From contig NZ_LR215979.1 of NCBI RefSeq assembly GCF_900683735.1, forward strand, positions 3,596,001 to 3,660,000: a stretch of 64,000 nt of DNA. The letters are read 5' to 3'. Shown in pieces: positions 43,248 through 59,745 of the stretch. A model generated the notes under the pieces. It did no database searches. It was not told the DNA's origin and saw only the letters and a program-made list of their open reading frames with translations. A program made the translations under genes and the position numbers. Each line of letters starts with the position of its first letter. Positions within the stretch are counted from its first letter, which is position 1. The stretch is from Fusobacterium ulcerans ATCC 49185 (GTDB lineage Bacteria > Fusobacteriota > Fusobacteriia > Fusobacteriales > Fusobacteriaceae).

Positions 43248-46200
43248 ATGAAGAAAAATTCTAAAAAAAGGTTTAAAGAAAAAATAAAAGTAACATTGAA
43301 AATTTTAGTTTTATTTGTAATTATTAAAAATATAGGATATAGTGAAGAAAATTTACAAGATATAGAAATGGGAATAGAAATTAAAAATAAAAGTAATGAA
43401 GTAATAGATGTGTCTGATATAAATCTTGGGGCCTATAAAGAAGTGAATGGATTAAAAATAGAAAATTCAGAAAACATTTCAGTTAATATAGATGAAATAA
43501 ATACAATATTAAATAAGAAAACAGGAACTATAAGTAGTGTTCTCTATGGAAAAGGATTAATAAATGATACAAGTGAAGTTTATATGTCAGATGAGTTGAA
43601 AATAAATGTTACTACAGAAGAATTAGAAGGAAATACAACAAGCCTTGTTGGAGTTACTAATGGAGGAAAATTAATTTTGGGAGAAAATACCAAAATAAAT
43701 ATTGCAGCAAATGGAAATGTTGCTTCAAATTCAATAACTTATGGAGTATATCTTAATGGGACATCATTAACTCATTTTGGAAGAGGAAGTGAAATAAATG
43801 TTTCAGCTTCAGCAGGATTTGTAGCAGGAATTAGTACAAATTTTAGTGAAATTAATGATAACTATGGTATTGTTATTGGAGATAACGTAAAAATAAAAGC
43901 AGAAGTAACAAATGCAGTGAGTGGAAATAATAATCAGGCACTAGGGATTTATAGTGTTACTGGAAATACAGTAACAATTGGGAACGATTTAATAATAGAA
44001 ACAGAAATAAATCTTTTTAATGGAGCAACTGGTGGATCTTATGCAATCAAAAATGTAAAGAATGGGAAAATGATAATAGGAAATAATGCAATATTAAGTA
44101 CAAAAGGAAATAATGCAACTTCACAGTCAGCAATATATAATAATACAAATTCAAATTTTGAAATAGGAAATGGAGCTAAAATAACATCTGTTCTTAATTC
44201 AGAAAATCAAAAAAATTCTGCATATACTGTTTATAATTCTGGAAATTCAACAATGAATATAGGGACAGACTCTGAGATAAATGTAAAAGGAAGTAATGCA
44301 AGACAAGTGTCAGCAGTATATAATGGATTATCTTCAGAACTTGTGATAGAAGATAAGAGTATTATAACAGCTTGGGCAGAAAATACTAATTTTCTAATGG
44401 GATTGTATAATAATAGTGGTGGAAAAATGAAGATAGGAAATGAAGGAAAAATAACTTCAATTTTCAATTCAAAAAATCAAGAAAATACTGCTCATTCTGT
44501 ATATAATATGAAAGGTTCAATGTTGAATATTGGAAAAAATTCTGAAATAAATGTAATAGGAAAAGATGCAAATCAAATATCAGCAGTATATAATAGTGAT
44601 TCATCTTCAGAGTTGGTAATAGAAGATGGAGGAACTATAACAGCTTTGGGAGAAAATACTGCTTTTGTAGTAGGAATGCATAACACAAAGGAAGGAAAAA
44701 TGAAGATAGGAAATGAAGGAAAAATAACTTCAATTCTTAACTCAAAGGATCAAGAGAATAAGGCTTATTCTGTATATAACAAGGAAGGTTCAATGTTGAA
44801 TATTGGAAAAAATTCTGAAATAAATGTAATGGGAAAAGATGCAAATCAAATATCAGCAGTATGCAATCGTGATTCATCTTCAGAGTTGGTAATAGAAGAT
44901 GGAGGAATTATAACAGCTTCAGGGGAAAATACTAATTTTATAATGGGGTTGTATAACATGAATGAGGGGAAAATGAAGATAGGAAATGAAGGAAAAATAA
45001 CTTCAATTATTGATTCAAAAGATCAAAAGAATTCTGCTTATTCTGTATATAATACAGGAAATTCAACATTAAATATAGGGAAAAATTCTGAAATAAATGT
45101 AATGGGAAAAGGTGCAAGACAGATCTCAGCGGTGTATAATAACGGAGCATCTTCAGAGTTGATAATAGAAGAAGGGGGAACTATAACAGCTTCAGGAGAA
45201 AATACTGTTTTTGTAATGGGATTATACAGTGAGAATAGTGGAAGTATTAAAATAGGAGATAGAGTAAAGATTATATCAAGTCTGGATTCTATAGGTCAAG
45301 AGAATAATGTTTTTGGAATTAGCAATACAAAAAATTCAACATTAAATATAGGGGAAAAAGCTGAAATAAGTGCAGTAGGAAAAGATGCAAATCAGGTAGT
45401 AGCAGTATATAATGGTGGTTCATCTTCAAAACTTACAATAGAGAATGGAAGTATAATAACTGCTTCAGGATTGGGAAATAATAATATAATAGGAGCAGTA
45501 TGGAATGAAGAAGGAAATATAAAACTTAATGGAGGAACCAGCATATATTCAGATGGATATGCAGTATATAATGAGAATGGGAGTGTATCAATAGAAGATG
45601 AAGGATACAGTAAAAAAATTCAAGGGGATATATTCTCAACAAAAGCTGGGGCTGTAACAGACATCTTATTAGATACTGATGATTCATATTTAGAAGGAGC
45701 TTCTTTTAAAAATAATGGAGGCATATTTAATTTTGGATTAAAAAATAATGCAGTATGGTATGTTCCACAAAATAGTGCAGTAACAAATTTTGATATAGAA
45801 AATGGAATAGTAGATATGACACAGAATTACAGTGGAGAAACTATCAAAGGAAAACAGGTTATATCAATTGATAAGACATCTGGAAGTGGAGGAACATATA
45901 TTATGGATATATCTCCAGAAGATAGAGATCAGACAGGAGATAAAACAGATGGTATCAATATAGAAAAAGCAGATGCAGCACAAAAAAATTATATTCAAGC
46001 AGGAAAAACTTCTATTACAGGTTTAGTAAATCATAATTTTTCTGACAAAGAAAGCTCTTCTATTAAGATAGCTTCTGCAGATAAAAATGTAACTTTTGAA
46101 GGAACTAAATTTACAGACACAGCAAGTATATATGATTATGTATTGTCACTTGAAGAAAATATAAAAGGAGAAGCAGGAGAAAAGAATACATGGTATGTAA

Positions 46201-47132
46201 CTGGAGTAGAGAAGCAAGAAGGAGAAGTAATAAAAAATATAGAAACTGCAATAACTTTAAATTATATGAGTGCTGTGTCATCACGTTCAGAATTAAATTC
46301 TGTCCATAAAAGACTTGGTGAGATACATAATGGTACTTCTGAAAATGGTACATGGGCAGGAACATCAAGTGGACAAATGGAGCACAATAAGTCATCTGAA
46401 AAATTTAAAAATGAATACAATGCATTGCAGATAGGATATGATAAGAGAAAAGAAACAGAAAAAAGAAGTATTTTTACAGGGTTTGCAGTACATAAAAAAG
46501 AGGGAAAAACAGATTTCAAAAATGGGGATGGTAAAAATTATGATATAGGAATATCTCTATATAAATCTTTTGTAATGGAGGATAATAGCTATGCAAATTT
46601 AGTAGTTAAATATAGTTATATAAATAATGAACATAAAAATTATACAAGTGATATGCAGGAAATGAAAACTGATTATGATACATGGTCAGGGAGTATAAGT
46701 TTTGAGTATGGAAAAAAATATACAAAGAATAGCTGGTATATGATCCCACAAATGCAAATGGACTATACATTTGTAAAAGGAGCTGATTATGCAATGAACA
46801 GTGGTATAAAAGTAGAGCAGAAAAATATTAACAGCTTGGTGGGAAGAGCAGGAATGTATGCAGGTTATGATTTTGAAAGAAGCAGTCATTTTATAAAAAC
46901 AGGAATACTACAGGAATTTTCAGGAGATTATGGAGCTAGAATAACGGGCATAGATACAACAGTAAATAAAAAATATAAAGGGAAAGATACATGGCTGGAA
47001 GCAGGTATAGGAGGATATTTTGAAGTAGGAAAAACAGGAACAACAAATATATATTACAATATAGAAAAAACATTTGGAAGTAAATTTGAAAGAAATTGGC
47101 AAGTAAGTTTAGGATTGAGAATAAAATTTTGA
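43248..47132 (+). CDS. Type V autotransporter adhesin-like protein with tandem repeats
   Basis: 1294 residues. A basic N-terminus followed by a hydrophobic stretch (to about residue 31) is the export signal. The passenger is Gly/Asn/Ser-rich with beta-helix character (recurrent N-I-G-x-N-x-E-I-N and K-I-G-N-E-G-K-I-T). Residues about 304-757 hold five copies of a 91-residue repeat. The C-terminal 280 residues form an autotransporter beta-barrel, with alternating strands (WYMIPQMQMDYTFVKG, YNIEKTFGSKFERNWQVSLG) and the terminal Phe. Related fusobacterial autotransporters act in adhesion. It stands alone; no cargo or regulator gene is adjacent. Confidence 0.9.
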   Translation: MKKNSKKRFKEKIKVTLKILVLFVIIKNIGYSEENLQDIEMGIEIKNKSNEVIDVSDINLGAYKEVNGLKIENSENISVNIDEINTILNKKTGTISSVLYGKGLINDTSEVYMSDELKINVTTEELEGNTTSLVGVTNGGKLILGENTKINIAANGNVASNSITYGVYLNGTSLTHFGRGSEINVSASAGFVAGISTNFSEINDNYGIVIGDNVKIKAEVTNAVSGNNNQALGIYSVTGNTVTIGNDLIIETEINLFNGATGGSYAIKNVKNGKMIIGNNAILSTKGNNATSQSAIYNNTNSNFEIGNGAKITSVLNSENQKNSAYTVYNSGNSTMNIGTDSEINVKGSNARQVSAVYNGLSSELVIEDKSIITAWAENTNFLMGLYNNSGGKMKIGNEGKITSIFNSKNQENTAHSVYNMKGSMLNIGKNSEINVIGKDANQISAVYNSDSSSELVIEDGGTITALGENTAFVVGMHNTKEGKMKIGNEGKITSILNSKDQENKAYSVYNKEGSMLNIGKNSEINVMGKDANQISAVCNRDSSSELVIEDGGIITASGENTNFIMGLYNMNEGKMKIGNEGKITSIIDSKDQKNSAYSVYNTGNSTLNIGKNSEINVMGKGARQISAVYNNGASSELIIEEGGTITASGENTVFVMGLYSENSGSIKIGDRVKIISSLDSIGQENNVFGISNTKNSTLNIGEKAEISAVGKDANQVVAVYNGGSSSKLTIENGSIITASGLGNNNIIGAVWNEEGNIKLNGGTSIYSDGYAVYNENGSVSIEDEGYSKKIQGDIFSTKAGAVTDILLDTDDSYLEGASFKNNGGIFNFGLKNNAVWYVPQNSAVTNFDIENGIVDMTQNYSGETIKGKQVISIDKTSGSGGTYIMDISPEDRDQTGDKTDGINIEKADAAQKNYIQAGKTSITGLVNHNFSDKESSSIKIASADKNVTFEGTKFTDTASIYDYVLSLEENIKGEAGEKNTWYVTGVEKQEGEVIKNIETAITLNYMSAVSSRSELNSVHKRLGEIHNGTSENGTWAGTSSGQMEHNKSSEKFKNEYNALQIGYDKRKETEKRSIFTGFAVHKKEGKTDFKNGDGKNYDIGISLYKSFVMEDNSYANLVVKYSYINNEHKNYTSDMQEMKTDYDTWSGSISFEYGKKYTKNSWYMIPQMQMDYTFVKGADYAMNSGIKVEQKNINSLVGRAGMYAGYDFERSSHFIKTGILQEFSGDYGARITGIDTTVNKKYKGKDTWLEAGIGGYFEVGKTGTTNIYYNIEKTFGSKFERNWQVSLGLRIKF
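44157..45518 (+). repeat. Five tandem repeats of about 273 bp inside the autotransporter
   Basis: Units begin near 44157, 44427, 44700, 44973 and 45246; the steps are 270, 273, 273 and 273 bp. Units 2 to 4 are nearly identical in DNA over long stretches (each has GAAGATAGGAAATGAAGGAA), whereas the outer units have diverged. Each unit encodes K-I-G..K-I-T-S-I, Y-S-V-Y-N, L-N-I-G-K-N-S-E-I-N-V, I-S-A-V-Y-N and E-L-V-I-E-D-G-G-x-I-T-A segments. Such arrays change length by recombination. Confidence 0.88.
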
Positions 47133-47183
47133 TTAAAAAATTAGTTGAAGAGTATTAAGAAAAATATTGTATATAATTATATG

Positions 47184-47226
47184 AAAAACTACACCCAGAA
47201 TTAAGATAAAGGGTGTAGTTTTTTTG
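47184..47226. terminator. Bidirectional terminator
   Basis: AAAACTACACCC and GGGTGTAGTTTT form a 12-bp stem between the convergent autotransporter and DXS-like genes, with T runs on both strands. Confidence 0.88.
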
Positions 47227-47284
47227 TAGTAAGTTAAAATAAATAGAAAATTATAAATTGTTTTACAAGGTAATTTTACAGTGC

Positions 47285-49042
47285 CTATAGAATATTACAC
47301 TTGAGAATATCTTTGATTATTTGTTCTTTTGTAATGCCATTTTCATTCATGATTTCTTTTACATCATATCTATCAATAAATTCTTTCTTGAAGCCATAAT
47401 TTTTAACTTTCATATCTGCTGTTCCATAGAAAGATGCTATTTTTTCTCCAAATCCACCATTTAAGATACCATCTTCTAAAGTGATAATCATATCATGATT
47501 ATTTTGAAGTTCTTGAAGCATTGTTTCATCAAGTCCTGTAATATATCTTGGGTTAATCAATGTAGGTATAAATCCAAGTTCCTTTTCTATCTCTTTTGAA
47601 ACTTCTTCTCCCAATTGATAGAAATCTCCTAATGCTAGTATTGCCACTTTGCTTCCTTTTACATCCAGCTGATATTTATTAATATTGCTGTAATTAGTAT
47701 CAACGTGTCTATTGTCTGATATAACATCATTACTAGGAATACGAATTGCCACAGGATATTGAGTTTGTTCTATACTCCAGTCCAGCATAGCAAGATATTC
47801 ATCTTTAGAAGTAGGTGCCAGATAAACAATATTAGGAATATTTGAAATCAATGGAATATCAAAAATACCTAAGTGTGTAACATCGTTCATGCTGTAAATA
47901 GATGCTCCATTTACTAGAATAGTTGCAGGATTATTGTTAATGCATAAATCTTGTGATATTTGATCATATGTTCTTTGGATAAAGCTTGAATATGTAGCAA
48001 ATACTGGTTTGCAGCCATTTTTAGCAATTCCTGAAATCATAGCAACAGCATGTTCTTCAGCAATTCCAACATCTATAAATTGTTTTCCTGCTTCTTTTCT
48101 TTTTTCAGAAGTAAATCCAATATTAGTTGGAACACCTGCAACAACAGCAGTTACTTTAGGATCTTTTTTCATTTTATTCAATAGATATTCCCCAGTTATT
48201 GAACCATAATCTTCACCAAAAGACAGTGATACATTTCCTGTTTCTATATCAAATGGGAAGTTCCAGTGCCAGTTTTCTTTGTTTTCTTCAGCAAATTTAT
48301 ATCCTTTACCTTTTTGAGTATTGATATGAACAACTATTGGGTGATCAATATCTTTTACTTTTGTAAATGCTTCAATTAATTTTTCAATATCATTTCCTTC
48401 GTTTTCATAGATATAGTCTAATCCCATTGCTTTAAAGAAATTACATTCGTTAGCTCCATTGCTTTCTCTAAGTTTTTTTAGATTCTTGTATAATCCTCCA
48501 TGGTTTTCAGCAATAGACATATCATTATCATTGACAATAATGATGAAATTACTCTTTAATTCTCCAGCAAAATCCAGTCCTTCTAATGCTTCTCCGCCGC
48601 TTAGAGAACCATCTCCAATAACAGCAATAATATTTTCAGCATCATTTTTTAAATCTCTTGCTTTTGCTAGACCGGAAGCTAGACTGACAGATGTTGAAGT
48701 ATGTCCTATATTAAACATATCATGCTCACTTTCTTCAGGATTTGTATATCCTGAAACATCATGAAAACGTTCTTCATAAAGATAAGCATCTTTTCTTCCA
48801 GTAAGCATTTTATGAGGATAGCTTTGGTGAGATACATCAAATACAAATTTATCTATTGGAGAGTTGAAAACATAATGCATAGCAATTATTGCTTCAACCA
48901 TTCCAAGATTTGGGCCTATATGTCCTCCAGTTTTGCTCAGTTTATTAAGCAGGGCAGTTCTCATTTCAGTTGCCAATTTTTTTAATTCTTCAATATTCAT
49001 TCCTTTTAAATCTTTTGGACTGTTTATTTTTTCTAAATACAT
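47285..49042 (-). CDS. Divergent DXS-like thiamine-diphosphate enzyme
   Basis: 585 residues, shorter than the usual 620 or so of 1-deoxyxylulose-5-phosphate synthase. The cofactor machinery is intact: GGHIGPNLG, HQSYPHKML, GHTSTSVS, GDGSLSGGEALEG..VNDNDMS and GIAEEHAV. However, the conserved DRAG segment that precedes THQG reads NGAS (before VTHLG), and the second Arg of RYPRG is Ser (RIPSN). In E. coli DXS these two arginines are reported to bind the phosphate of glyceraldehyde 3-phosphate. The acceptor may therefore differ, and the label 'dxs' should be used with care. AAGGAGAAAAAG precedes the ATG; the promoter is MerR-like. Confidence 0.82.
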   Translation of the reverse strand: MYLEKINSPKDLKGMNIEELKKLATEMRTALLNKLSKTGGHIGPNLGMVEAIIAMHYVFNSPIDKFVFDVSHQSYPHKMLTGRKDAYLYEERFHDVSGYTNPEESEHDMFNIGHTSTSVSLASGLAKARDLKNDAENIIAVIGDGSLSGGEALEGLDFAGELKSNFIIIVNDNDMSIAENHGGLYKNLKKLRESNGANECNFFKAMGLDYIYENEGNDIEKLIEAFTKVKDIDHPIVVHINTQKGKGYKFAEENKENWHWNFPFDIETGNVSLSFGEDYGSITGEYLLNKMKKDPKVTAVVAGVPTNIGFTSEKRKEAGKQFIDVGIAEEHAVAMISGIAKNGCKPVFATYSSFIQRTYDQISQDLCINNNPATILVNGASIYSMNDVTHLGIFDIPLISNIPNIVYLAPTSKDEYLAMLDWSIEQTQYPVAIRIPSNDVISDNRHVDTNYSNINKYQLDVKGSKVAILALGDFYQLGEEVSKEIEKELGFIPTLINPRYITGLDETMLQELQNNHDMIITLEDGILNGGFGEKIASFYGTADMKVKNYGFKKEFIDRYDVKEIMNENGITKEQIIKDILKCNIL

Positions 49043-49094
49043 ATCTTTTTCTCCTTATACAATAATATTTTTTGATTTATTTCTTGATATATCA

Positions 49095-49125
49095 AGTCTA
49101 ACATCTGGAGTGGACTCTAGGTCAA
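49095..49125 (-). promoter_or_regulatory. MerR-type promoter of the DXS-like gene (19-bp spacer)
   Basis: On the reverse strand, TTGACC (49125-49120) and TAGACT (49100-49095) are separated by 19 bp, TAGAGTCCACTCCAGATGT, which contains the dyad CTAGAGT / ACTCCAG. Long 19-20-bp spacers with a central dyad are the hallmark of promoters untwisted by MerR-family activators. A 14-bp palindrome, CTTGATATATCAAG, covers the -10/start region (49083-49096). Confidence 0.7.
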
Positions 49126-49154
49126 GAATTAATTTTAATTTTTTTTATTGTGAT

Positions 49155-49186
49155 AAAAATCCCTTCCAAATATTATTTGAAAGGGA
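49155..49186 (-). terminator. Terminator of the alpha/beta hydrolase gene
   Basis: On the reverse strand, CCCTTTCAAA and TTTGGAAGGG pair and are followed by ATTTTT. It separates the hydrolase gene from the DXS-like gene's promoter. Confidence 0.8.
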
Positions 49187-49197
49187 AAGGAAAGTAA

Positions 49198-50259
49198 TTA
49201 TTTTAAATTTGTCTTGAAGAAATTACCTAATTTATCAAAAGGTATTATATCAACACGGTCATATAAATCAACATGTCCAGCACCAGGAACAACAAGTAAT
49301 TCTTTTGGTTCAGCTGCATGTCTGTATGCATCTTCACTAAATTCTTTTGAGTGAGCCTGATCTCCAGTAATAAATAACATTGGACGAGGAGAGATAGTTT
49401 CAATGTCATTAAATGGATAGAAGTTCATAAATTTTATATTGCTTGTAAGAGTTGGATGGGTAGTTGTTTCAGTAGTAGCTTCTTCAGGAGTAAATTCTCC
49501 ACGTGAAGTACGATAGAAATCATAAAATTCTTTTTCAATTGATGATGAGTTTTCATCAATTTTATGTACAGTTCCACTTGTGTATTCAGTTTTTCCACCA
49601 TTAAATTCTACATAACGTTGTTCAGCAGCAGCAGCAATAAATTGTTTACGCTGCTCTAATGTCAATGAATGATTAAGTCCATTACGGTTAGCAGATCCCA
49701 TATCATACATACTTACTGTGGCAATAGCTTTCATACGAGGATCAATTTTTGCTGCACTGATAGCGAAGCTTCCACTTCCACAGATACCAAGAGCTCCAAT
49801 TTTGTTTTGATCAATGAATGGTCTAGTTCCAAGATAGTCAACAGCTGCACTGAAGTCTTCAGTATAGATATCAGGAGATACAGCATTACGAGGCTGTCCT
49901 TCACTTTCACCCCAGAATGATAAGTCTATTGCTAGAGTTACAAATCCCTGTTCTGCAAGTTTTTGAGCATAGAGATTAGAAGATTGTTCTTTCACTGCTC
50001 CCATAGGATGCCCAATAATTATTGCAGAATTTTTAGCATTTTGATTCATATTTTTAGGAATAAAAAGATTACCTGCAACCTTCATCTTATACTGATTTTG
50101 AAATGTAACTTTTTGTAAAGTTACTTTATCACTTTTATAGAAATTATCTGCACCATTGGACATATCAGCAGCAAAAACACTCCCTACTCCAGCAGTCATT
50201 AAAGTCATTCCGATCATTGCCCTTTTACAAATTGATAATAAAGATGATGATTTTTTCAT
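49198..50259 (-). CDS. Exported alpha/beta hydrolase, DLH/YcjY-like
   Basis: 353 residues. The N-terminus has a positively charged stretch and a hydrophobic segment ending GVGSVFAADMS, so it is probably exported. The hydrolase core has IIIGHPMGAVKEQSS, VTLAIDLSFWGESEG, the nucleophile elbow GICGSGSFA (Cys or Ser, near 160), LFITGDQAHSKEFSEDA and GAGHVDLYDR with the His. It resembles YcjY-type dienelactone-hydrolase-like proteins. The substrate is unknown. AAGGAGG precedes the ATG. It has its own weak promoter beside an inverted-repeat element. Confidence 0.82.
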   Translation of the reverse strand: MKKSSSLLSICKRAMIGMTLMTAGVGSVFAADMSNGADNFYKSDKVTLQKVTFQNQYKMKVAGNLFIPKNMNQNAKNSAIIIGHPMGAVKEQSSNLYAQKLAEQGFVTLAIDLSFWGESEGQPRNAVSPDIYTEDFSAAVDYLGTRPFIDQNKIGALGICGSGSFAISAAKIDPRMKAIATVSMYDMGSANRNGLNHSLTLEQRKQFIAAAAEQRYVEFNGGKTEYTSGTVHKIDENSSSIEKEFYDFYRTSRGEFTPEEATTETTTHPTLTSNIKFMNFYPFNDIETISPRPMLFITGDQAHSKEFSEDAYRHAAEPKELLVVPGAGHVDLYDRVDIIPFDKLGNFFKTNLK

Positions 50260-50328
50260 TTTTAACCTCCTTGAATTTTAATGTTTTTAATCTTGAGTAA
50301 AGTATATAACAAAAACATTTGGATAACT

Positions 50329-50376
50329 AATACTTATATTAAAGATTGTTTTATGCTTAAAAGGTATATAAGTATT
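50329..50376 (-). promoter_or_regulatory. Operator-like inverted repeat before the hydrolase gene
   Basis: AATACTTATAT (50329-50339) and ATATAAGTATT (50366-50376) are an 11-bp perfect inverted repeat enclosing TTATGCTTAA. Read in the same plus-strand direction, it shares AATACYTATATTA and TATGCTTAAWA with the element at 51640-51682. A weak promoter (TAGTTA, 17 bp, TATACT at 50306-50301, reverse strand) lies right next to it, as expected for an activator site. Confidence 0.6.
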
Positions 50377-50425
50377 TGAATTTAAAGATTAAGAATTAGA
50401 TTATAGATTTTAAATATTTAAAAAA

Positions 50426-50968
50426 TCAAATATTTTTTCCCATAGTGTAAGCTTCTTTTAAAACATTAGGGAAATTTTTAATAGATCCTGCAGTATCAGC
50501 ACCAAGTCCTTTTACTACACCTTTTAAATTTGTCTTTTCAAAACAGTCTATCCAGCCCTGCAGTCCTTTAATAACTCCATCTATTGAATTTTTGTTGTCA
50601 TCAGCTGCTGCTGTCAGAAGGTAGATGTCAGTAAATGAATAATTTGATGGAAACAGAGGATTTGTTCTGTCTAATAAAGTTTTCATCTGTCCACACATTT
50701 CATAGAAATATATTGGAGTAGCAAATACAACAACATCATTATGAAGCATCTCTCCCACAATGTCACTGGCATCATCTTTTATAATACATTTTTTAGTTGA
50801 CTGGCAAACTAGACACCCTTTACAGAAATTAATAGTTTTGTTATAAAGATCTATTTTTTTTACTTCATGTCCAGATTCAAGTGCACCTTTTTCAAATTCA
50901 GATGCTAATATATCTGAATTTCCTCCTTTGCGTAGGCTTGCAGAAATAATTAAAACATTTTTTTTCAT
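50426..50968 (-). CDS. Flavodoxin-like NAD(P)H:FMN reductase / iron-sulfur flavoprotein relative
   Basis: 180 residues with the flavodoxin-like fold of the NADPH-dependent FMN reductase family. The FMN phosphate loop is ISASLRKGGNSDILAS (9-24). KGCLVCQSTKKC (about 49-60) is the Cys segment common in the iron-sulfur flavoprotein group, and FATPIYFYEMCGQMKTLLDR is the second flavin-binding region. It should reduce a quinone, azo or similar compound with NAD(P)H. It lies 37 bp after the acetyltransferase gene on the reverse strand. Confidence 0.87.
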   Translation of the reverse strand: MKKNVLIISASLRKGGNSDILASEFEKGALESGHEVKKIDLYNKTINFCKGCLVCQSTKKCIIKDDASDIVGEMLHNDVVVFATPIYFYEMCGQMKTLLDRTNPLFPSNYSFTDIYLLTAAADDNKNSIDGVIKGLQGWIDCFEKTNLKGVVKGLGADTAGSIKNFPNVLKEAYTMGKNI

Positions 50969-51005
50969 ATTTTTTCTCCTTTTACATTTTAAATTTCTTT
51001 GATGA

Positions 51006-51578
51006 TTATATTTCTTTCAAAATTCTTGCTGGTATTCCTCCAGCAACTACATTTGCAGGGATATCTTTTGTAACTACTGCTCCTGCTGCAATTATTGCAT
51101 TTTCTCCTATTCTGACACCAGATACAATTGTTACATTAGCACCAATCCAGACATTTTTTTCCAGAATAATTGGTGCTGGATATGTAGTACCTCTGTCTTC
51201 AGGAGCAAAACCATGATCAAGAGTTGCCAGAGTTACATTGTGTCCAATGAGTACTCCATCTCCAATGAAGATACCCCCTTGATCTTGAAAGTGACAGCAG
51301 GTATTTATAAAAACATTTTTTCCAATATGAATATTTTTCCCACAGTCTGTGTAAAATGGTGGAAATATACAAAAGGAACTGTCTATTGTATTTCCAGTAA
51401 GCTGAGTAAACAACTCTCTGATTTCTTCTGGAGTATGATAAGAACTATTCAACTTAGTTGTAATTTTCATAGCTTCATTGCTTAGTCCTACCATAAAATT
51501 ATGAATTTCTGTTCCAGTAGGAATTGGCTTCCCACTGTTTACATGATTTAAAAATTTTTCTATATTTATTTTAATCAC
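51006..51578 (-). CDS. Sugar O-acetyltransferase (LacA/Maa type, hexapeptide repeat)
   Basis: 190 residues. The N-terminal Mac domain includes FLNHVNSGKPIPTG and LTGNTIDSSFCIFPPFYTDCGKNI. The left-handed beta helix follows, with GKNVFINTCCHFQDQGGIFIGDG, the active-site His in ATLDHGFAPEDRG, then GANVTIVSGVRIGENAIIAAGAVVTKDIPANVVAGGIPARI. It acetylates a sugar or related small molecule with acetyl-CoA. It starts with GTG at 51578 after AAGGGCAG. It is first in a reverse-strand unit with the flavodoxin-like gene. Confidence 0.88.
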   Translation of the reverse strand: MIKINIEKFLNHVNSGKPIPTGTEIHNFMVGLSNEAMKITTKLNSSYHTPEEIRELFTQLTGNTIDSSFCIFPPFYTDCGKNIHIGKNVFINTCCHFQDQGGIFIGDGVLIGHNVTLATLDHGFAPEDRGTTYPAPIILEKNVWIGANVTIVSGVRIGENAIIAAGAVVTKDIPANVVAGGIPARILKEI

Positions 51579-51611
51579 CTGCCCTTATAACAATTTATAC
51601 TTTTTAATCTT

Positions 51612-51640
51612 ATTATATAGCAGAAGTAATTCAATATCAA
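51612..51640 (-). promoter_or_regulatory. Promoter of the acetyltransferase-reductase unit
   Basis: On the reverse strand, TTGATA (51640-51635), a 17-bp spacer and TATAAT (51617-51612). The palindromic element lies directly upstream of the -35 box. Confidence 0.7.
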
Positions 51641-51682
51641 ATACCTATATTACATATAAATCTATGCTTAATAAGCATATGA
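51640..51682 (-). promoter_or_regulatory. Operator-like element before the acetyltransferase gene
   Basis: Contains the perfect palindrome TATGCTTAATAAGCATA (51663-51679) and, next to it, AATACCTATATTA. The same two blocks occur before the hydrolase gene at 50329-50376, so one regulator probably controls both units. No candidate regulator gene lies in the window. Confidence 0.6.
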
Positions 51683-51770
51683 TAAAGAACAGTTCTCTGG
51701 CACAAAATGATATAATCAAACTAAAAGATTTATAGAATTACATTAGAATAAAAAATATTTTGGGAAAAAC

Positions 51771-51801
51771 TTGTCTTAGAGTTAACTTCCAGTGATATAT
51801 T
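51771..51801 (+). promoter_or_regulatory. Second MerR-type promoter (19-bp spacer), no obvious target gene
   Basis: TTGTCT (51771-51776) and TATATT (51796-51801) are 19 bp apart, with TAGAGTTAACTTCCAGTGA between them. The dyad CTTAGAGTTAAC / GTTAACTTCCAG is centred on GTTAAC. TAGAGT-x2-AC and CCAG are shared with the promoter of the DXS-like gene. From 51802 to 52018 there is no convincing reading frame; the next gene is the small DUF6485-like one. Confidence 0.55.
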
Positions 51802-52018
51802 AATGTTATCAAAGTAAATATTTTTGTGAAGATAAGAAGGAGAACAGTATTTAAAAAAGTATTAATGATTGACAGAGATATTAATTAAATGTAAGATAAA
51901 GAGAAGCAGATAATTTTATACTGATATGAAAGAGTTCTGACAGCAATAAAAAGGAATATTACTGTATAAAAGAGCTGAAGAAATTATGTAATGTAATAAA
52001 AAAGGAGATGAAATTACT

Positions 52019-52237
52019 ATGAATGTTAAAGAATTTTGCAGCTGTACAGATCATAAATGTCCATTTAATCCTGTTAACCATGATAAAGGATGTGATTTAT
52101 GTATATCGAAATGTTTAAAACTAAATGAGATTCCATCATGCTTTTTCAAAAAAATATCGACAGAAAGACCAGAAAATGAAGATTATACATTTAAAGGATT
52201 TGCTGATTTTACAACAAAACATTGGAAGAAAAATTAA
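52019..52237 (+). CDS. DUF6485-like small cysteine-rich protein
   Basis: 72 residues with Cys at 7, 9, 14, 25, 28, 32 and 41 (FCSCTDHKCPFNP, GCDLCISKCLKL, PSCFFKK). The pattern C-x-C-x4-C, H-D-K-G-C-x-x-C and I-P-S-C-F-F matches the DUF6485 family of putative metal-binding proteins from anaerobes. Function unknown. AAAAGGAGATGAAAT precedes the ATG. It may be the target of the MerR-like promoter upstream. Confidence 0.78.
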   Translation: MNVKEFCSCTDHKCPFNPVNHDKGCDLCISKCLKLNEIPSCFFKKISTERPENEDYTFKGFADFTTKHWKKN

Positions 52238-52307
52238 AAAATATAATTATATTTTTAATGTAACGTGATTGAAAATACTAAAAATATAGTATAAATAACT
52301 GGTGAAG

Positions 52308-52342
52308 AAAATAGAGAATTATTTTTCTCTATTTTTTTATTT
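52308..52342 (+). terminator. Terminator after the DUF6485-like gene
   Basis: AAATAGAGAA and TTCTCTATTT form a 10-bp stem around TTATTT, followed by T. It isolates the eut operon from the gene before it. Confidence 0.85.
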
Positions 52343-52543
52343 TAAATTTAGGAATAAAAAAATAATATTATAAAAAAAATTTTTTTAATAATTTTTTTTA
52401 CTAAAGAAATCCAATCAGTTTCAGTGTTTAGAAGTAGATAAAAAAGTTTGAAAAATAAAAGCATTTGAAAAAAAATAAAAAATGTGCTTATATATAATAA
52501 AATTGTGTATAAAAAAATCTTTTTATATCAAAAGGAGATAAAA
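52343..52543 (+). other. AT-rich region before eutS
   Basis: No gene. TATAAT at about 52494 could be a -10 box, but no -35 box is at a good distance. AAAGGAGA before ATG 52544 is the eutS ribosome-binding site. I found no ANTAR-type double hairpin here. Confidence 0.45.
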
Positions 52544-52885
52544 ATGGAAAAAAATAGAGTAATACAGGAATATGTTCCTGGGAAACAAGTAACTTTAGCA
52601 CATTTGATAGCTCATCCAGATAAGGATATTTGTAAAAAAATAGGATTAAATACTGAAACTACACAAGCGATAGGAATACTGACAATTACACCAGGTGAAG
52701 CAGCTATAATAGCAGCAGATATAGCTACAAAATCTGGGAACATAGAGATAGGATTTTTAGATAGATTTAGTGGAACACTAGTAATAAATGGAGATGTATC
52801 AAGTATAGAGAGTTCATTAAAAAGTGTGATTAGCTTTCTTTCTACAACATTAAAATTTTCCATATCTGAACTTACAAGGTCGTGA
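52544..52885 (+). CDS. eutS: Ethanolamine microcompartment shell protein EutS (BMC-H, permuted)
   Basis: 113 residues. It begins [25 protein letters not shown] and includes [37 protein letters not shown], the circularly permuted BMC domain of EutS/PduU. It forms a bent hexamer in the shell. I start at ATG 52544 after AAAGGAGA; an in-frame ATG 60 bases earlier is in the promoter region. First gene of the operon, seven bases before eutP. Confidence 0.95.
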
Positions 52886-52892
52886 CATTTAT

Positions 52893-53342
52893 ATGCGAAT
52901 GATGCTGATAGGGAGAACAGGGTGTGGAAAAACTACTCTTGCCCAAAGAATTAATGGACTTGATATAAATTATAAAAAGACACAGATGATACTATTTGAG
53001 GAAAATATTATTGATACTCCTGGGGAATATATTGAAAATAAATTTTACTACAAAGCTTTGACAGTTACAGCAAACGATGTTGATATAATAGCATTTGTCC
53101 AATCAGCCTTAGATGAAGAAACATTCTTTCCACCTAAATTTTCTACTATGTTCACAGGAAAAATTATAATAGGAATAATAACTAAAAAAGATCTCCAGCT
53201 TGATTGTAGTAATGCAGAGAGTTTTTTAAGATGTGCAGGAGCAGAAGAAATATATTATATGGGATTAGATGATGAAATTGAGATTGTAAGGCTTAAAGAA
53301 AGGTTGGGTATAGGGGATGAAAGTAAGAATAGTAATAGCTGA
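52893..53342 (+). CDS. eutP: EutP/PduV-family GTPase-like protein
   Basis: 149 residues. P-loop GRTGCGKTTLAQ (7-18), switch region ENIIDTPGEYIENKFYYKAL and the base-recognition motif ITKKDL (T/N-K-x-D). The EutP/PduV family is associated with microcompartments; acetate kinase activity has been reported for EutP of Salmonella. It overlaps eutV by 26 bp and so is coupled to the regulators. Confidence 0.94.
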   Translation: MRMMLIGRTGCGKTTLAQRINGLDINYKKTQMILFEENIIDTPGEYIENKFYYKALTVTANDVDIIAFVQSALDEETFFPPKFSTMFTGKIIIGIITKKDLQLDCSNAESFLRCAGAEEIYYMGLDDEIEIVRLKERLGIGDESKNSNS

Positions 53343-53898
53343 AGATGAAACATTGACAAGAATGGATATTGCAGAAATGCTTAAAGAAAATGGTTATGAA
53401 GTCGTGGGAGAAGCTTCTGATGGGTTGGAAGCTTTAAAAATATGTCGTGAAAAAAAGCCAGATATTCTACTATTGGATGTAAAGATGCCTTTGATGGATG
53501 GACTTCAAACGGCAAAAGTTCTCAATGAAGAGGGATTTTCTGGTTGTATCATTATGCTGACAGCATATAATATTAAAGAGTATATTCATGAAGCAACAGA
53601 AAGTTCTGTGATGGGATATTTAATAAAACCTATAGACGAAGAGATATTTCTTTCAAGATTAGAAATGATTTACAGTACTCATATGAGATTGCTTAGATTT
53701 AAAGATGAGGCTGAGGGAGCAAAACAAAAATTAGAAGAGCGAAAGAAGATAGAAAAAGCTAAAGGAATATTAATGAAAAACAAGAATATTTCTGAGAAGG
53801 AAGCTTACCAAGAAATGAGAAATATAAGTATGAAGAAAAGAATAGCTTTAATTGATTTGGCTGAAATAATAATATTGACAGGTGGAATATTGATATGA
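53317..53898 (+). CDS. eutV: Response regulator with ANTAR RNA-binding domain, EutV
   Basis: 193 residues. The receiver domain (1-125) has the acidic pair in IAEDETLTR, the phosphoacceptor Asp in DILLLDVKMPLMDG and Lys in YLIKPIDEE. The C-terminal ANTAR domain (about 130-190) has KIEKAKGILMKNKNISEKEAYQEMRNISM. In Enterococcus, phosphorylated EutV binds double hairpins in eut mRNA and prevents termination. A matching double hairpin lies after eutW here. Confidence 0.95.
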   Translation: MKVRIVIAEDETLTRMDIAEMLKENGYEVVGEASDGLEALKICREKKPDILLLDVKMPLMDGLQTAKVLNEEGFSGCIIMLTAYNIKEYIHEATESSVMGYLIKPIDEEIFLSRLEMIYSTHMRLLRFKDEAEGAKQKLEERKKIEKAKGILMKNKNISEKEAYQEMRNISMKKRIALIDLAEIIILTGGILI

Positions 53899-55289
53899 TA
53901 AGAAATTACTGTAAAATGTGTTCAACATTGACAGCTTCAGATATTGAAAAAATAGAAAGAGTGTCTGAAACTGTTTCTATACTCAGCAATATACTTAATA
54001 TGGATGTATTTTTAGATTGTCCTACAAAAGATAAAGACAATGCTGTTGTTGTATATCATGCAAGACCTAAAACAAACAGTCTTTATTCAAAAAATATAGA
54101 TGGGGAAATGGCACACTCATCAAAGGAACCAGCAGTTTTTCGAACTTTTTTAACAGGACTACCTTCTAAAAACTATAAAGCTATTACTCAGGAAGAACAG
54201 CATGTATTTCAAAATATAATGCCAGTTTTTAATGAATTAAAAGAGGTTATAGGAGTTATAATTGTAGAGTATAGAGAGAGCCAGGAACATGAATTTAATT
54301 CAGATCTTTTTAACTTTACAGCAACAAAGCTTATTAGAGATATAGATATTTCAAGAAGCAGAATTCCAGAATTTGTAAAGGATGGTATAGTAGTATTTAA
54401 TCAAGATGGAATAGTGACATATATTAATAAAATAGCTGAAAAAATATATGCCTCTTTGGGGTTTTCAAAATCAATTGTAGGAGAACAGTTTGAAAATATA
54501 GCTCTTACAAAAACGAGCATTCAGGAAATCTTAAAACAAAAAACAGATAAAACCATAGAAATTACTATTTCAAATATAATTTTAGCAATAGCTTATTTTA
54601 TTACATCTTTGGAGGAAGATAATTACAGTATAGTAATGGTAATCAGAGATATAACCAAAGAAAAAAACAATGAACAGGAGATTTTATTAAAATCAGTGGT
54701 GATAAAAGAGATTCATCATAGAGTAAAAAATAATCTTCAAACAATTGCAAGTCTTTTAAGAATACAGAAAAGACGTGTGGAAAATGATGAAACTAAAAAA
54801 ATATTAGATGAAACAATAAGCAGGATATTAAGTATAGCTGTAACACATGAAGTACTATCTGAAAATGGAATGGATAGTCTTAATATAAAAACAATATTAC
54901 AGTTATTATATAAAAATTCTTTTGAAAATATTATTGACAAAACAAAAAAAATAGAGTTTAATATGATAGGAGATGACTTTATCATTAGTTCAGATAAAGC
55001 AACATCTGTAGCTTTAGTAATAAATGAACTTATTCAGAATGCAATACATTATGCTTTTCACAACAGAGTAGAAGGAAAAATTGATGTCATTATAGAAAAG
55101 AAAACTTTTTTTTCTAAAATAACAATTTCTGACAATGGCGTTGGAATGGATGCAAAAAAATACAGAGAAAACAGTTTAGGGCTAATGATAGTAGAAAAGC
55201 TTGTTACTGACAAACTGGAAGGAAATTTTGAACTAAAAAGTAAAATCAATGAAGGAACTACAATAGAATTTGAAATAAAAAATAATTAA
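53895..55289 (+). CDS. eutW: Ethanolamine-sensing histidine kinase EutW
   Basis: 464 residues with no membrane segment, so it is a cytoplasmic sensor. The N-terminal sensory half has a GAF/PAS-like layout (PAS-like FVKDGIVVFNQDGIVTYINKIAEKIY near 160-190). The HisKA_2 phosphoacceptor box is IKEIHHRVKNNLQTIASLLRIQ, and the ATPase has VINELIQNAIHYAF (N box) and ISDNGVGMD (G1). EutW homologues autophosphorylate with ethanolamine and activate EutV. The ATG overlaps the eutV stop by 4 bp. Confidence 0.95.
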   Translation: MIRNYCKMCSTLTASDIEKIERVSETVSILSNILNMDVFLDCPTKDKDNAVVVYHARPKTNSLYSKNIDGEMAHSSKEPAVFRTFLTGLPSKNYKAITQEEQHVFQNIMPVFNELKEVIGVIIVEYRESQEHEFNSDLFNFTATKLIRDIDISRSRIPEFVKDGIVVFNQDGIVTYINKIAEKIYASLGFSKSIVGEQFENIALTKTSIQEILKQKTDKTIEITISNIILAIAYFITSLEEDNYSIVMVIRDITKEKNNEQEILLKSVVIKEIHHRVKNNLQTIASLLRIQKRRVENDETKKILDETISRILSIAVTHEVLSENGMDSLNIKTILQLLYKNSFENIIDKTKKIEFNMIGDDFIISSDKATSVALVINELIQNAIHYAFHNRVEGKIDVIIEKKTFFSKITISDNGVGMDAKKYRENSLGLMIVEKLVTDKLEGNFELKSKINEGTTIEFEIKNN

Positions 55290-55325
55290 TACACAAGGAT
55301 GTGTATTCAAAAAGGCAATGAAGCC
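55288..55325 (+). promoter_or_regulatory. ANTAR-type double hairpin (EutV target) before eutA
   Basis: Hairpin P1 is AATACAC, loop AAGGAT, GTGTATT (55288-55307). Hairpin P2 is GGC, loop AATGAA, GCC (55314-55325). Both loops are hexaloops with A at position 1 and G at position 4, the recognition features of ANTAR antiterminators. The 3' arm of P2 overlaps the 5' arm of the terminator at 55321, so stabilising P2 would block termination. The P2 stem is short (3 bp). Confidence 0.85.
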
Positions 55326-55363
55326 AAAGAGATAGGTTATCCTATTTTTCTTTGGCTTTTTTT
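55321..55363 (+). terminator. Regulated terminator before eutA
   Basis: AAGCCAAAG (55321-55329) pairs with CTTTGGCTT (55350-55358), with an inner ATAGG/CCTAT stem, followed by T. It is mutually exclusive with ANTAR hairpin P2. Confidence 0.9.
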
Positions 55364-55388
55364 ATTTTGATTTTTCAGGAGGAAGTTG

Positions 55389-56816
55389 ATGAAAGAAGAA
55401 ATCATCAGTGTAGGAATAGATATCGGAACTTCAACTACTCAGCTAGTATTTACCAGAATTACATTGGAAAATATAGCTTCTGGTGCAAGAGTTCCACAAA
55501 TAAAAATTATATCCAAAGATGTATTTTACAGAAGTGAAATATATTTTACCCCTCTTCTAAGTCTGACTGAAATAGATGCTGAAAAAGTTAAGCAGATAAT
55601 ACAGAATGAATATAGAAAAGCAGGGGTATTTATCAAAGATGTTTCTACAGGAGCAGTAATAATAACTGGAGAAACAGCAAGAAAATCTAATGCTAGAGAT
55701 GTACTTAATGCTTTAAGTGGAATGGCAGGAGATTTTGTAGTAGCCACAGCAGGTCCTGATCTGGAAAGTGTAATAGCTGGAAAAGGAGCAGGGGCAATGG
55801 ACTATTCTGAAAGAAATAATACAACAGTCTATAATCTGGATATAGGTGGAGGAACAACTAATATAGCTTTATTTAAAAATGGAGAAGTGGTAGATACTAC
55901 CTGCATGGATATTGGTGGAAGACTTATAAAGTTTAAGGATAATTCACTGGAAATAATATATATCTATAAAAAATTCGAAAAGCTAATAGATGATATGAAG
56001 CTTCAAACATTAAAAATAGGCAAAACAGCAGATAGGGAAGAAATAAGAAAATTATGCAGAAAGCTGGGAGAGATACTTTTAAGTTCTGTAGGAGCAATAC
56101 CTAAAAGTGATGAATATAGGTATCTTATCACTGATAAAGATTTTAGAGGAGAAGCTGAATTAAAATTTGTAAACTTTTCAGGAGGTGTAGCAGATTTTAT
56201 ATATAATCAATACTCTGGAGATGAATTCAAATATAGAGATATAGGAATTGTTCTGGGGAAAGAGATACTTAAAATTTTTAAAGAAAAAAATATAAGCATT
56301 ATAAAAAGTGGTGAAACAATAGGTGCAACAGTTGTAGGAGCAGGATCTCATACTACAGAAATCAGTGGAAGTACAATAACTTACACTGAGGATATTTTTC
56401 CAATCAAGAATATACCAGTATTAAAAATTGCTCAAAGTGATGAAAAAGAAATAGAAAGCCTTAAAATGAATTTACGAAAAAAAAGAGAATGGTTCAAGGT
56501 TGAAGATGGAATTCAAGAGGTGGCTATAGGTCTTACAGGAAAAACCAATATGAAATACAGAGAAATATTAGAACTGGCAGATGGAATTTATGATGTTTTC
56601 ACAAATGTGGACAGAGTAATACTGGTAATAGAAAATGATATAGGAAAGGCTCTTGGGCAGGGACTTTCACTAAAATATGGCAATAAAGTTCCAATTATCT
56701 GCATAGATAGTATCAAAGTAGCAGATGGAGATTTTATTGATATAGGCAGACCATTAGGGAGCGGAAGTGTGCTTCCTGTTATAGTAAAAACTTTAGTATT
56801 AAGTAGTTATCAATAG
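55389..56816 (+). CDS. eutA: Ethanolamine ammonia-lyase reactivating factor EutA
   Basis: 475 residues with an ASKHA/actin-like fold: [14 protein letters not shown] (phosphate 1), [20 protein letters not shown] (phosphate 2) and the C-terminal [20 protein letters not shown]. It exchanges damaged cobalamin out of EutBC at the expense of ATP. I start at ATG 55389 after AGGAGGAAG. It is the first gene behind the regulated terminator and lies 15 bp before eutB. Confidence 0.95.
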
Positions 56817-56831
56817 GTGGGGTGAATATTA

Positions 56832-58196
56832 ATGAGATTAGAAGCGAGACTTTTTGGTCAAGATTACAAATTCAATTCTTTGATGGATGTAATGGCCAAA
56901 GCGAATGAACAAAAGTCTGGAGATGAACTGGCAGGAATAGCAGCAAGATCGATGAAAGAAAGAGTGGCAGCTAAAGAAGTTCTTTCAAACATTCAGCTGA
57001 AAGACTTAAAGGAAAATCCAGCAGTACCTTATGATGAGGATGAAGTAACAAGAATAATCATTGATGGTTTAAATCTGAAAATTTATGATGAGATTAAAGA
57101 ATGGACAGTTGGAGAATTAAGAGAATGGCTTTTAAGCGATGAGGTAGGAGATACTGAAATCAAATGGATTAGAAGAGGACTTACTTCTGAGATGATCGCA
57201 GCAGTAGCAAAGCTTATGTCAAACCTTGATTTGATTAAGGCTGCAAGAAAAATGATAGTTACAGCTCATTGTAATACAACAATTGGAGGAGAGGGAATAT
57301 TAGCTGCAAGATTACAGCCAAATCATACTACTGATGATCCAGATGGAATAATGATTTCACTTCTTGAAGGACTTACTTATGGAGTAGGAGATGCTGTTAT
57401 AGGTCTTAATCCAGTTGATGATACAGCTGACAGTGTAATAAGAGTTCTGGAAAGATTCCATGAAATTAAACAAAAATATCAAATACCAACACAAACTTGT
57501 GTTTTGGCTCATGTAACTACACAGATGGAAGCTATCAGAAGAGGAGCACCAACTGATTTGATTTTCCAAAGTATAGCAGGATCACAAAAATCAAATGAGG
57601 CATTTGGGATTACAGGGGATATGATTGAAGAGGCTAGATTACTTGCATTGAAAGAAGGAACAGGAGCAGGACCAAATGTTATGTATTTTGAAACAGGACA
57701 AGGCTCTGAACTTTCTTCAAATGGACATCATGGAGTAGATCAAGTAACTATGGAAGCAAGATGTTATGGATTTGCTAAAAAATTCTCTCCCTTCATGGTA
57801 AATACAGTTGTTGGATTCATAGGTCCAGAATATCTATATGACAGTAAACAGGTAATAAGAGCAGGACTTGAAGATCATTTTATGGGAAAACTACATGGAA
57901 TCCCTATGGGAGTTGATGTTTGTTATACAAATCATATGAAGGCAGATCAAAATGATATTGAATGTTTATCAGTTCTATTGACAGCAGCAGGATGCAATTA
58001 TTTTATTGGAGTTCCAGCAGGAGATGATATTATGCTTAACTACCAATGTACAGGATATCATGATATTCAGACTCTAAGAGAAACATTGGGAGTAAAACCA
58101 ATAAAAGAGTTTGATGAGTGGTTGGAAAAAATGGGAATAAGAAAAAATGGAAAGCTGACAGAAATAGCAGGAGATGCATCAATATTTTTAAAGTAG
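56832..58196 (+). CDS. eutB: Ethanolamine ammonia-lyase large subunit
   Basis: 454 residues, the standard length. It forms the TIM barrel of the B12-dependent lyase, which cleaves ethanolamine to acetaldehyde and ammonia. Landmarks are CNTTIGGEGILAARLQPNHTTDDPDG, GLNPVDDTADSV, YFETGQGSELSSNGHHGVDQ and MGVDVCYTNHMKADQND. GGTGGGGTG precedes the ATG. eutC follows 9 bp later. Confidence 0.98.
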   Translation: MRLEARLFGQDYKFNSLMDVMAKANEQKSGDELAGIAARSMKERVAAKEVLSNIQLKDLKENPAVPYDEDEVTRIIIDGLNLKIYDEIKEWTVGELREWLLSDEVGDTEIKWIRRGLTSEMIAAVAKLMSNLDLIKAARKMIVTAHCNTTIGGEGILAARLQPNHTTDDPDGIMISLLEGLTYGVGDAVIGLNPVDDTADSVIRVLERFHEIKQKYQIPTQTCVLAHVTTQMEAIRRGAPTDLIFQSIAGSQKSNEAFGITGDMIEEARLLALKEGTGAGPNVMYFETGQGSELSSNGHHGVDQVTMEARCYGFAKKFSPFMVNTVVGFIGPEYLYDSKQVIRAGLEDHFMGKLHGIPMGVDVCYTNHMKADQNDIECLSVLLTAAGCNYFIGVPAGDDIMLNYQCTGYHDIQTLRETLGVKPIKEFDEWLEKMGIRKNGKLTEIAGDASIFLK

Positions 58197-58205
58197 GAGG
58201 ATAAA

Positions 58206-59066
58206 ATGGTTTCTGAAAGAGATTTAAAAGAAATAATTTCACAGGTTCTAAAAGAGATGGGGACTGATAATAAGTTTAAAGAAAAGGCAGAGCAAAAGAC
58301 AGAAAGTGATCTTATAGATATTACAAAAATTGATCTTAGAGATGTAATTGAATTAAAGAATCCTGCAAATGAAGCTGAATTGATGAAATATAAAAAGAAA
58401 ACTCCAGCAAGAATAGGAATATCAAGAGCAGGGACTAGATATACAACAAATACAATGCTGAGATTCAGAGCAGACCATGCTTCAGCAGTAGACGCAGTAT
58501 ATACAGATGTTTCAGAAGAATTTCTGAATGCAAATAATCTTTTTACAGTACAGACTAAATGTCATTCAAAAGATGAATATATGACAAGACCAGATTTAGG
58601 AAGAAGATTGAATGAAGAATCAATAAATATTCTTAAAGAAAAAGCTAAAAAATCTCCAAAAGTAGAAATTTTTGTATCTGATGGGCTTAGTTCTACAGCT
58701 ATTGAAGCAAATGTAGAAGATACACTTCCAGCTATAATCAATGGATTAAAATCTTATGGAATAGAAGCAGGAACACCATTTTTTCTAAAATATGGAAGAG
58801 TAGGAGCTGCTGATGAAGTATCAGAAATACTAGATGCAGAAGTTACTTGCGTACTTATTGGAGAAAGACCTGGACTGGCAACTTCAGAAAGTATGAGTGC
58901 TTATATCACTTATAAAGGATATATGGGAATTCCTGAATCAAAAAGAACAGTAGTTTCAAATATTCATAAGAATGGAACACCAGCTTCTGAAGCTGGAGCA
59001 CATATAGCTCACATAATCAAAAAAATATTAGATGCTAAGGCAAGTGGACAAGACTTAAAACTTTAA
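58206..59066 (+). CDS. eutC: Ethanolamine ammonia-lyase small subunit
   Basis: 286 residues. The N-terminal 30 or so residues (VSERDLKEIISQVLKEM) form an amphipathic helix like a microcompartment targeting peptide. The core includes TPARIGISRAGTRYTTNTMLRFRADHASAVDAVY, VFVSDGLSSTAIE, GRVGAADEVSEIL, LIGERPGLATSESMSAYITY and a C-terminal GAHIAHIIKKIL. It completes the cobalamin-binding site of EutBC. AGGAGGATAAA precedes the ATG. Confidence 0.97.
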   Translation: MVSERDLKEIISQVLKEMGTDNKFKEKAEQKTESDLIDITKIDLRDVIELKNPANEAELMKYKKKTPARIGISRAGTRYTTNTMLRFRADHASAVDAVYTDVSEEFLNANNLFTVQTKCHSKDEYMTRPDLGRRLNEESINILKEKAKKSPKVEIFVSDGLSSTAIEANVEDTLPAIINGLKSYGIEAGTPFFLKYGRVGAADEVSEILDAEVTCVLIGERPGLATSESMSAYITYKGYMGIPESKRTVVSNIHKNGTPASEAGAHIAHIIKKILDAKASGQDLKL

Positions 59067-59081
59067 TTTGTGGAGGGAAAA

Positions 59082-59735
59082 ATGATTAATGATCCTTTAA
59101 AACCAAATGTATTAGGGGTAAAACTTATTCCTAATGTAGATGACAAAATGGCAGAAGAATTAAATTTACCAGCAGGATATAAAAGTATTGGAATAGTAAC
59201 AGCAGACTGTGATGATGTTACATATACAGCACTGGATCAGGCTACAAAAATGGCAGAAGTAACAGTGGTATATGGGAAATCTTTTTATGGAGGAGCTGCA
59301 AATGCTAATACAAAACTGGCTGGAGAGGTAATTGGAATAATAGCTGGACCTACACCAGCAGAAGTAAGAAGCGGATTGAATGCAATAGTGGATTTTATAG
59401 AAAACGAAGCATCTTTCTATAGTGCAAATGAAGATGATACAATAGCATACTATGCTCACTGTGTATCAAGAACAGGAAGCTATCTTTCTAAGACAGCTGG
59501 TGTGGAGGAAGGAGAAGCACTGGCTTATCTAATAGCTCCCCCAATTGAAGCTATGTATGCTTTAGATGCAGCATTAAAAGCAGCTGATGTTACTCTTACA
59601 GCTTTCTTTGGACCACCTTCTGAAACAAACTTTGGTGGAGGACTTCTTACAGGAAGTCAGTCAGCTTGCAAAGCAGCTTGTGAAGCTTTTGCTGATGCAG
59701 TAAAGTTTGTTGCTCAGAATCCTACAAAATATTAA
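59082..59735 (+). CDS. eutL: Microcompartment shell protein EutL (tandem BMC, BMC-T)
   Basis: 217 residues, the usual EutL size. It begins with NDPLKPNVLGVKLIPNVDDKMA and includes VTADCDDVTYTALDQATKMAEV, YAHCVSRTGSYLSKTAGVEEGEALAYLIAPP and GPPSETNFGGGLLTGSQSACKAACEAF. EutL trimers are shell tiles with a gated pore that can bind ethanolamine. ATG 59082 follows GGAGGG; an upstream in-frame GTG overlaps that site. Confidence 0.97.
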   Translation: MINDPLKPNVLGVKLIPNVDDKMAEELNLPAGYKSIGIVTADCDDVTYTALDQATKMAEVTVVYGKSFYGGAANANTKLAGEVIGIIAGPTPAEVRSGLNAIVDFIENEASFYSANEDDTIAYYAHCVSRTGSYLSKTAGVEEGEALAYLIAPPIEAMYALDAALKAADVTLTAFFGPPSETNFGGGLLTGSQSACKAACEAFADAVKFVAQNPTKY

Positions 59736-59745
59736 GGAGTAAAAT

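Follow-up and report, generated by a model that had tools for sequence, protein, structure and literature searches.

DXP synthase (DXS) is the first enzyme of the MEP pathway and a drug target. In E. coli DXS, the R478A replacement brought the Km for GAP up to 1400 uM (PMC11019550). The R420A replacement resulted in extremely inefficient turnover, and R99, D427 and H431 were reported to support the persistence of lactyl-ThDP (PMC11908136). The acceptor used by DXPS can also be another aldehyde or O2 (PMC11908136). The dxsA gene of Lactococcus lactis was interpreted as encoding a non-mevalonate pathway enzyme, and its deletion resulted in little phenotype (PMC7864038). On the side of regulation, known MerR promoters have spacers of 19-20 bp that contain the operator, and their regulators act by kinking the DNA (PMC9909328); in the AdhR protein of B. 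subtilis, Cys52 is essential (PMC4776306).

The DNA analysed here, called the window below, is a whole stretch of 64,000 nt of Fusobacterium ulcerans ATCC 49185 (contig NZ_LR215979.1, positions 3,596,001-3,660,000; its genome is referred to as G000), in which a gene for a DXS-like protein lies behind a long-spacer promoter. The joint reading, that this gene is under AdhR/NmlR-type control and that its product is not an ordinary DXP synthase, is assigned a probability of about 0.8. The promoter type itself is already known, but the product of its recurrent partner gene is probably not what it is called.

The promoter and its surroundings

Read directly on the minus strand from 49125 to 49095, the element before the DXS-like gene is TTGACC-TAGAGTCCACTCCAGATGT-TAGACT. 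The -35 element TTGACC (49120-49125) agrees with the consensus at five of six positions and the -10 element TAGACT (49095-49100) at only four of six; both are kept in the congeners G002 and G003. The spacer (49101-49119) is exactly 19 bp long, within the range of MerR promoters, and direct reading together with a motif scan found in it the MerR-type dyad CTAGAGT-CC-ACTCCAG. The arms of this conserved dyad, CTAGAGT (49120-49114) and ACTCCAG (49111-49105), pair at six of seven positions around a symmetric core GAGT-NN-ACTC. The sequence-only reading, which had pointed to these two boxes on the reverse strand and to the dyad between them, was correct in letters and coordinates. A ribosome-binding site AAGGAG (49051-49056, minus strand) precedes the ATG at 49042 on the same strand. 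Upstream, a strong intrinsic terminator of the alpha/beta hydrolase gene (49186-49160, minus strand) splits that gene from the DXS-like gene, so that the latter needs its own promoter. A riboswitch or other known RNA was looked for with Rfam, and no match was found within 47000-56000.

The DXS-like gene is present in three of 12 members of the genus, and the site is kept in all three. The spacer and its dyad, whose conservation among relatives had been proposed as a check, are identical in G003 and changed at one central base in G002, and are thus kept in both congeners carrying the gene, while the sequence downstream of the promoter diverges. Based on this conservation, on the regulon in the genome and on recurrence at other DXS-like loci, the claim that a MerR-type promoter drives the DXS-like gene has strong comparative support, and the element at 49095-49125 is a well-supported prediction of a MerR-family-activated promoter of the AdhR/NmlR type.

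A 14-bp palindrome CTTGATATATCAAG (49083-49096) lies over the expected start site and, as had been noticed earlier, overlaps the -10 element, by 2 bp. Its role as a second operator was rejected because perfect palindromes of this length are common in such A+T-rich sequence (nine in the window) and because it is absent as a palindrome from G002; it is probably incidental.

The neighbours are syntenic in G002 and G003. They comprise the alpha/beta hydrolase (DLH/S33-like, 49198-50259, minus strand), with a signal-peptide-like start, an NADPH-dependent FMN reductase or flavodoxin-fold protein (50426-50968, minus strand), and a hexapeptide-repeat acetyltransferase (51006-51578, minus strand) of a family that adjoins other DXS-like genes as well. 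Downstream of the DXS-like gene, a large repetitive autotransporter-like ORF of 1294 aa occupies 43248-47132. The stress cluster is adjoined by an ethanolamine-utilisation locus (52484-63914), in which EutS and EutP were recognised by model and EutV/W, A, B, C, L and E by reading; this locus yields acetaldehyde, a possible inducer. A required link between the two was rejected, since they occur apart: G003 has the DXS-like gene and its site but no eutB, while in G001 and G004 eutB is present without the DXS-like gene.

A candidate regulator and its regulon

Genome-wide, the motif TTGACYTRGAGTNNACTCYARNNNNTANANT was found at six sites, against none for the reversed pattern that served as control in the same search. 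Besides the site before the DXS-like gene (window 49095-49125, minus strand), it stands directly before a gene for a 128-aa MerR protein (site at G000:C1 1852641-1852671, gene at 1852694), before a flavodoxin gene (3759396), directly before an NfnB-like NAD(P)H oxidoreductase gene (G000:C1:1537807-1537837, equal to L016:4808-4838) and before a gene for a YqhD-like iron alcohol dehydrogenase (2234104). The NfnB-like gene has the same MerR-type promoter in G001 and G002 too, which would put the NADPH supply under the stress switch. The sixth site is weaker, with three mismatches, and lies between the acetyltransferase gene and a DUF6485 gene (window 51771-51801, plus strand), facing the latter; the small Cys-rich DUF6485 protein (52019-52237, plus strand) is a possible target. 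In G003, the region matching 51771-51801 contains a perfect motif site (L192:8584).

The genome has nine MerR_1 matches, among which the 128-aa protein is the sole short one of the NmlR/AdhR kind. In the genome search for the dyad and for a MerR gene, which the sequence-only reading had suggested, one of the six sites was found to precede this one short merR. Among NCBIfam models the protein matches NmlR NF041849 best, but its 146 bits fall short of the cut-off of 175, so that membership of the NmlR clade is likely but not formal. Cys52 is present in it, as in 18 of 19 MerR-like ORFs at DXS-like loci, the nineteenth being a short match without that region. The regulator gene carries the same operator as its targets both here and in several congeners.

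Across 12 genomes of the genus, the motif occurs 36 times, compared with none in the control. The sites repeatedly precede genes for MerR, iron alcohol dehydrogenase, aldo-keto reductase (AKR), carboxymuconolactone decarboxylase-like (CMD-like) protein, cupin, flavodoxin and FMN reductase, the names at the congener sites having been read from the sequence. The other targets are thus carbonyl-detoxifying oxidoreductases, namely the YqhD-like dehydrogenase and flavodoxin here, and AKR, CMD-like and cupin proteins in congeners. As predicted from its genes, the motif-bearing set is an AdhR/NmlR-type carbonyl/thiol-stress regulon. Among the inducers that the sequence-only reading had named, reactive aldehyde or thiol stress fits this type of regulator and regulon, but a metal is disfavoured for the same reason. 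At another locus (L019:3233-3529), a 98-aa MerR-like ORF that reaches scarcely beyond the DNA-binding domain adjoins a carboxymuconolactone decarboxylase-like gene.

The DXS-like enzyme

The DXS-like ThDP enzyme (585 aa, 47285-49042, minus strand) belongs to the NCBIfam NF008968/PRK12315 subfamily, which it matches over its full length at 935 bits (cut-off 510). It also passes TIGR00204, the NCBIfam DXS model, at 499.9 bits (cut-off 465.95). In a tree, the DXS-like proteins group apart from canonical DXS, and a canonical 610-aa DXS is encoded elsewhere in the genome (2770266-2772062). Compared with E. coli DXS, the ThDP and catalytic residues H49, H80, D152, N181, H299, E370, R398 and H431 are kept in all 92 DXS-like proteins, whereas in E. 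coli numbering R420 is kept in 3, R478 in 2, R99 in 2 and D427 in 1 of the 92. In the F. ulcerans protein the replacements, E. coli residue first, are R99 to E91, R420 to G379, D427 to N386 and R478 to S437, and the loop near residues 198-235 is shorter by about 35 residues. DXP synthase is defined in part by its GAP-binding residues, and because R420 and R478 are absent here, the protein was not filed under that name. The surprise expressed earlier at a DXS under MerR control stands as to the control, but the arrangement is less odd than claimed because these residues are lost and a separate canonical DXS exists. The DXS-like protein is probably a stress enzyme and not the DXS of the isoprenoid pathway, as judged from its residues and its promoter.

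What such an enzyme would do can be read in more than one way, and its loss of gating residues might also allow pyruvate decarboxylation with no aldehyde as acceptor. A pyruvate oxidase-like or flavodoxin-coupled ThDP enzyme for oxygen or quinone stress is a real rival on that account, albeit an unlikely one. Flavodoxin and FMN-reductase genes adjoin DXS-like genes and have the same motif, O2 is usable as a DXPS acceptor (PMC11908136), and both R99 and D427, which are reported to help lactyl-ThDP persist (PMC11908136), are lost; however, the protein is without an electron-acceptor domain, and the co-regulated ADH and AKR genes point to aldehydes.

Less likely still is a true second DXS that is stress-inducible through the MerR-type promoter and provides DXP for thiamine/PLP or isoprenoids once the usual route has suffered damage. 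The DXS model is passed, the catalytic residues are intact, and the solved relative 9kpq, which spans the whole protein and has the best score of any PDB chain, was deposited as a DXP synthase. Nevertheless, R420 and R478 are lost in nearly all members, the canonical DXS lies elsewhere without such a promoter, and the DXS-like gene is carried by genomes without DXR: DXR is absent from 10 of 10 Leptotrichiaceae-like genomes with the DXS-like gene, while F. ulcerans has DXR. The mild deletion phenotype of dxsA in L. lactis (PMC7864038) would also fit the DXS-like reading, should the dxsA product be a member of the NF008968 subfamily. In one Leptotrichiaceae-like genome a second DXS-like copy is split into two adjacent reading frames (G034:C1:279671-281411).

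Recurrence across bacteria and the level of chance

Eighty DXS-like loci from GTDB species-representative genomes, 958 kb in total, were surveyed with a looser motif pattern that was not derived from those loci. With up to two mismatches, this pattern was found within 300 bp upstream at 11 of the 80 loci versus none of 1600 shuffled regions. When whole loci were counted, the motif lay 60-1493 bp upstream on the same strand in 21 of the 80, and an NmlR-type merR was nearby in 17, often as the gene immediately upstream. Either or both were present at 26 loci, and neither was found at 54 with these searches. Throughout the 958 kb the motif occurred only upstream of DXS-like genes, and the reversed control gave no site; at 17 canonical DXS loci of relatives, the motif was found in none. 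The hosts include Oscillospiraceae, Lachnospira, Roseburia, Clostridium, Enterococcus and Gastranaerophilales, and both the switch and the altered active site are thus found again in numerous bacteria of the gut. Within Fusobacteriota the motif stands at 11 of 25 DXS-like genes, with several merR-dxs or flavodoxin-merR-dxs operons. Along the tree, the link of promoter or merR to the DXS-like gene changes about 15 times, a coarse figure from a fast tree with a long outgroup branch, so that the link is recurrent and not one inherited arrangement. At three loci, from Clostridium celatum/cuniculi and a Gastranaerophilales genome (L100:7794-8198, L102:7794-8186 and L096:7768-8160), the order is reversed, with merR lying after the DXS-like gene.

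The genome's eight further MerR_1 matches leave room for a different regulator, one of the MerR proteins of 271-291 aa, with a drug-like ligand as the signal. This is improbable: only the NmlR-like merR has the motif before itself, and the regulators that adjoin DXS-like genes in other genomes are similar to it, with Cys52 retained.

The evidence does not lie in the geometry. A blind scan for any promoter with 19-bp spacing and a dyad found three in the window versus 2.1 (maximum 4) in shuffles, and the spacing was not relied on. The claim that this geometry is specific to MerR promoters has to be dropped, since alone it stands at chance level, and the specific part is the sequence GAGT-NN-ACTC. 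For the motif TTGACYTRGAGTNNACTCYARNNNNTANANT with up to three mismatches, chance predicts 0.01 sites in a window; two were found, the one at the DXS-like gene having no mismatch. This pattern was written with that site in view, so that the independent tests in congeners and at other loci weigh more. A mere chance match, with the gene read from an ordinary nearby promoter such as the weak 17-bp-spaced TTGATA-17-AAAAAT at 49095-49067, draws on the roughly two dyad-bearing geometries that a window holds by chance but is very improbable given the rarity of the specific motif, its persistence in congeners despite downstream divergence, and its presence upstream of orthologues in unrelated genomes.

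Proposed mechanism and meaning

In the proposed mechanism, the CTAGAGT-CC-ACTCCAG dyad is probably bound by the 128-aa NmlR-like regulator (G000:C1, about 1852694), which is autoregulated through this motif. Without a signal, the regulator would keep the promoter, over-long with its 19-bp spacer, switched off. When a reactive carbonyl or thiol stressor is sensed through Cys52, the regulator would kink the spacer so that sigma engages both boxes, and the DXS-like ThDP enzyme would be induced. This enzyme keeps the catalytic core seen in ThDP enzymes that decarboxylate pyruvate and has lost both the binders of the D-GAP phosphate (R420 and R478) and the residues that hold lactyl-ThDP until GAP arrives (R99 and D427). 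Its most likely job would be the condensation of pyruvate-derived acetyl units with small unphosphorylated aldehydes, making it an aldehyde sink alongside two co-regulated proteins, the YqhD-like alcohol dehydrogenase and the flavodoxin. The sink role is tentative and is suggested by the residue losses and the company in the regulon. The best reading is thus an AdhR/NmlR-controlled ThDP carboligase inducible by carbonyl or thiol stress, in which we infer both inducer and substrate.

Many genomes list a protein of the NF008968 type as DXP synthase. The evidence points instead to a stress enzyme without the usual GAP binding that, in Fusobacteriota, Bacillota, Gastranaerophilales and others, is tied to carbonyl/thiol sensing. 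If this is true, isoprenoid-pathway annotation would be corrected, including in genomes without the MEP pathway, and an unexpected enzyme would be added to the anaerobic aldehyde response. A further conjecture, somewhat short of even odds, is that the "DXS" subfamily NF008968, found in gut and oral anaerobes, has been misannotated and is an enzyme in its own right, a ThDP carboligase inducible through NmlR/AdhR. Such an enzyme would clear toxic aldehydes by coupling each to an acetyl unit derived from pyruvate, a way of dealing with carbonyl stress that is not described in bacteria. A search of open-licence papers for MerR-controlled DXS, 9kpq and DXS induction by aldehydes in Clostridium gave nothing usable, and in that literature the repeated association between an NmlR-type switch and a DXS look-alike minus the GAP-binding residues appears undescribed.

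Comparison with known systems

The closest described systems are the AdhR (YraB) regulon of Bacillus subtilis and the NmlR regulons of Haemophilus, Neisseria and Streptococcus. They share with the present system a MerR-family regulator with conserved Cys52/54, long-spacer promoters with a central dyad, and targets that include alcohol dehydrogenases and carboxymuconolactone decarboxylase. They differ in that a DXS-like ThDP enzyme, a flavodoxin and an NfnB-like oxidoreductase are among the targets here, and in that no glutathione-dependent pair of the adhC-estD kind turned up behind the motif. With canonical DXS, the DXS-like protein has in common the three-domain ThDP architecture, the catalytic H49, E370, H299 and H431, and a score above the NCBIfam DXS cut-offs, but R420, R478, R99, D427 and the loop are missing, and its gene occurs in DXR-less genomes and with a stress-type promoter. 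Finally, the protein is a full-length match to the NF008968 (PRK12315) subfamily, whereas the name of that subfamily, DXP synthase, reflects neither the missing GAP-binding residues nor the link to MerR.
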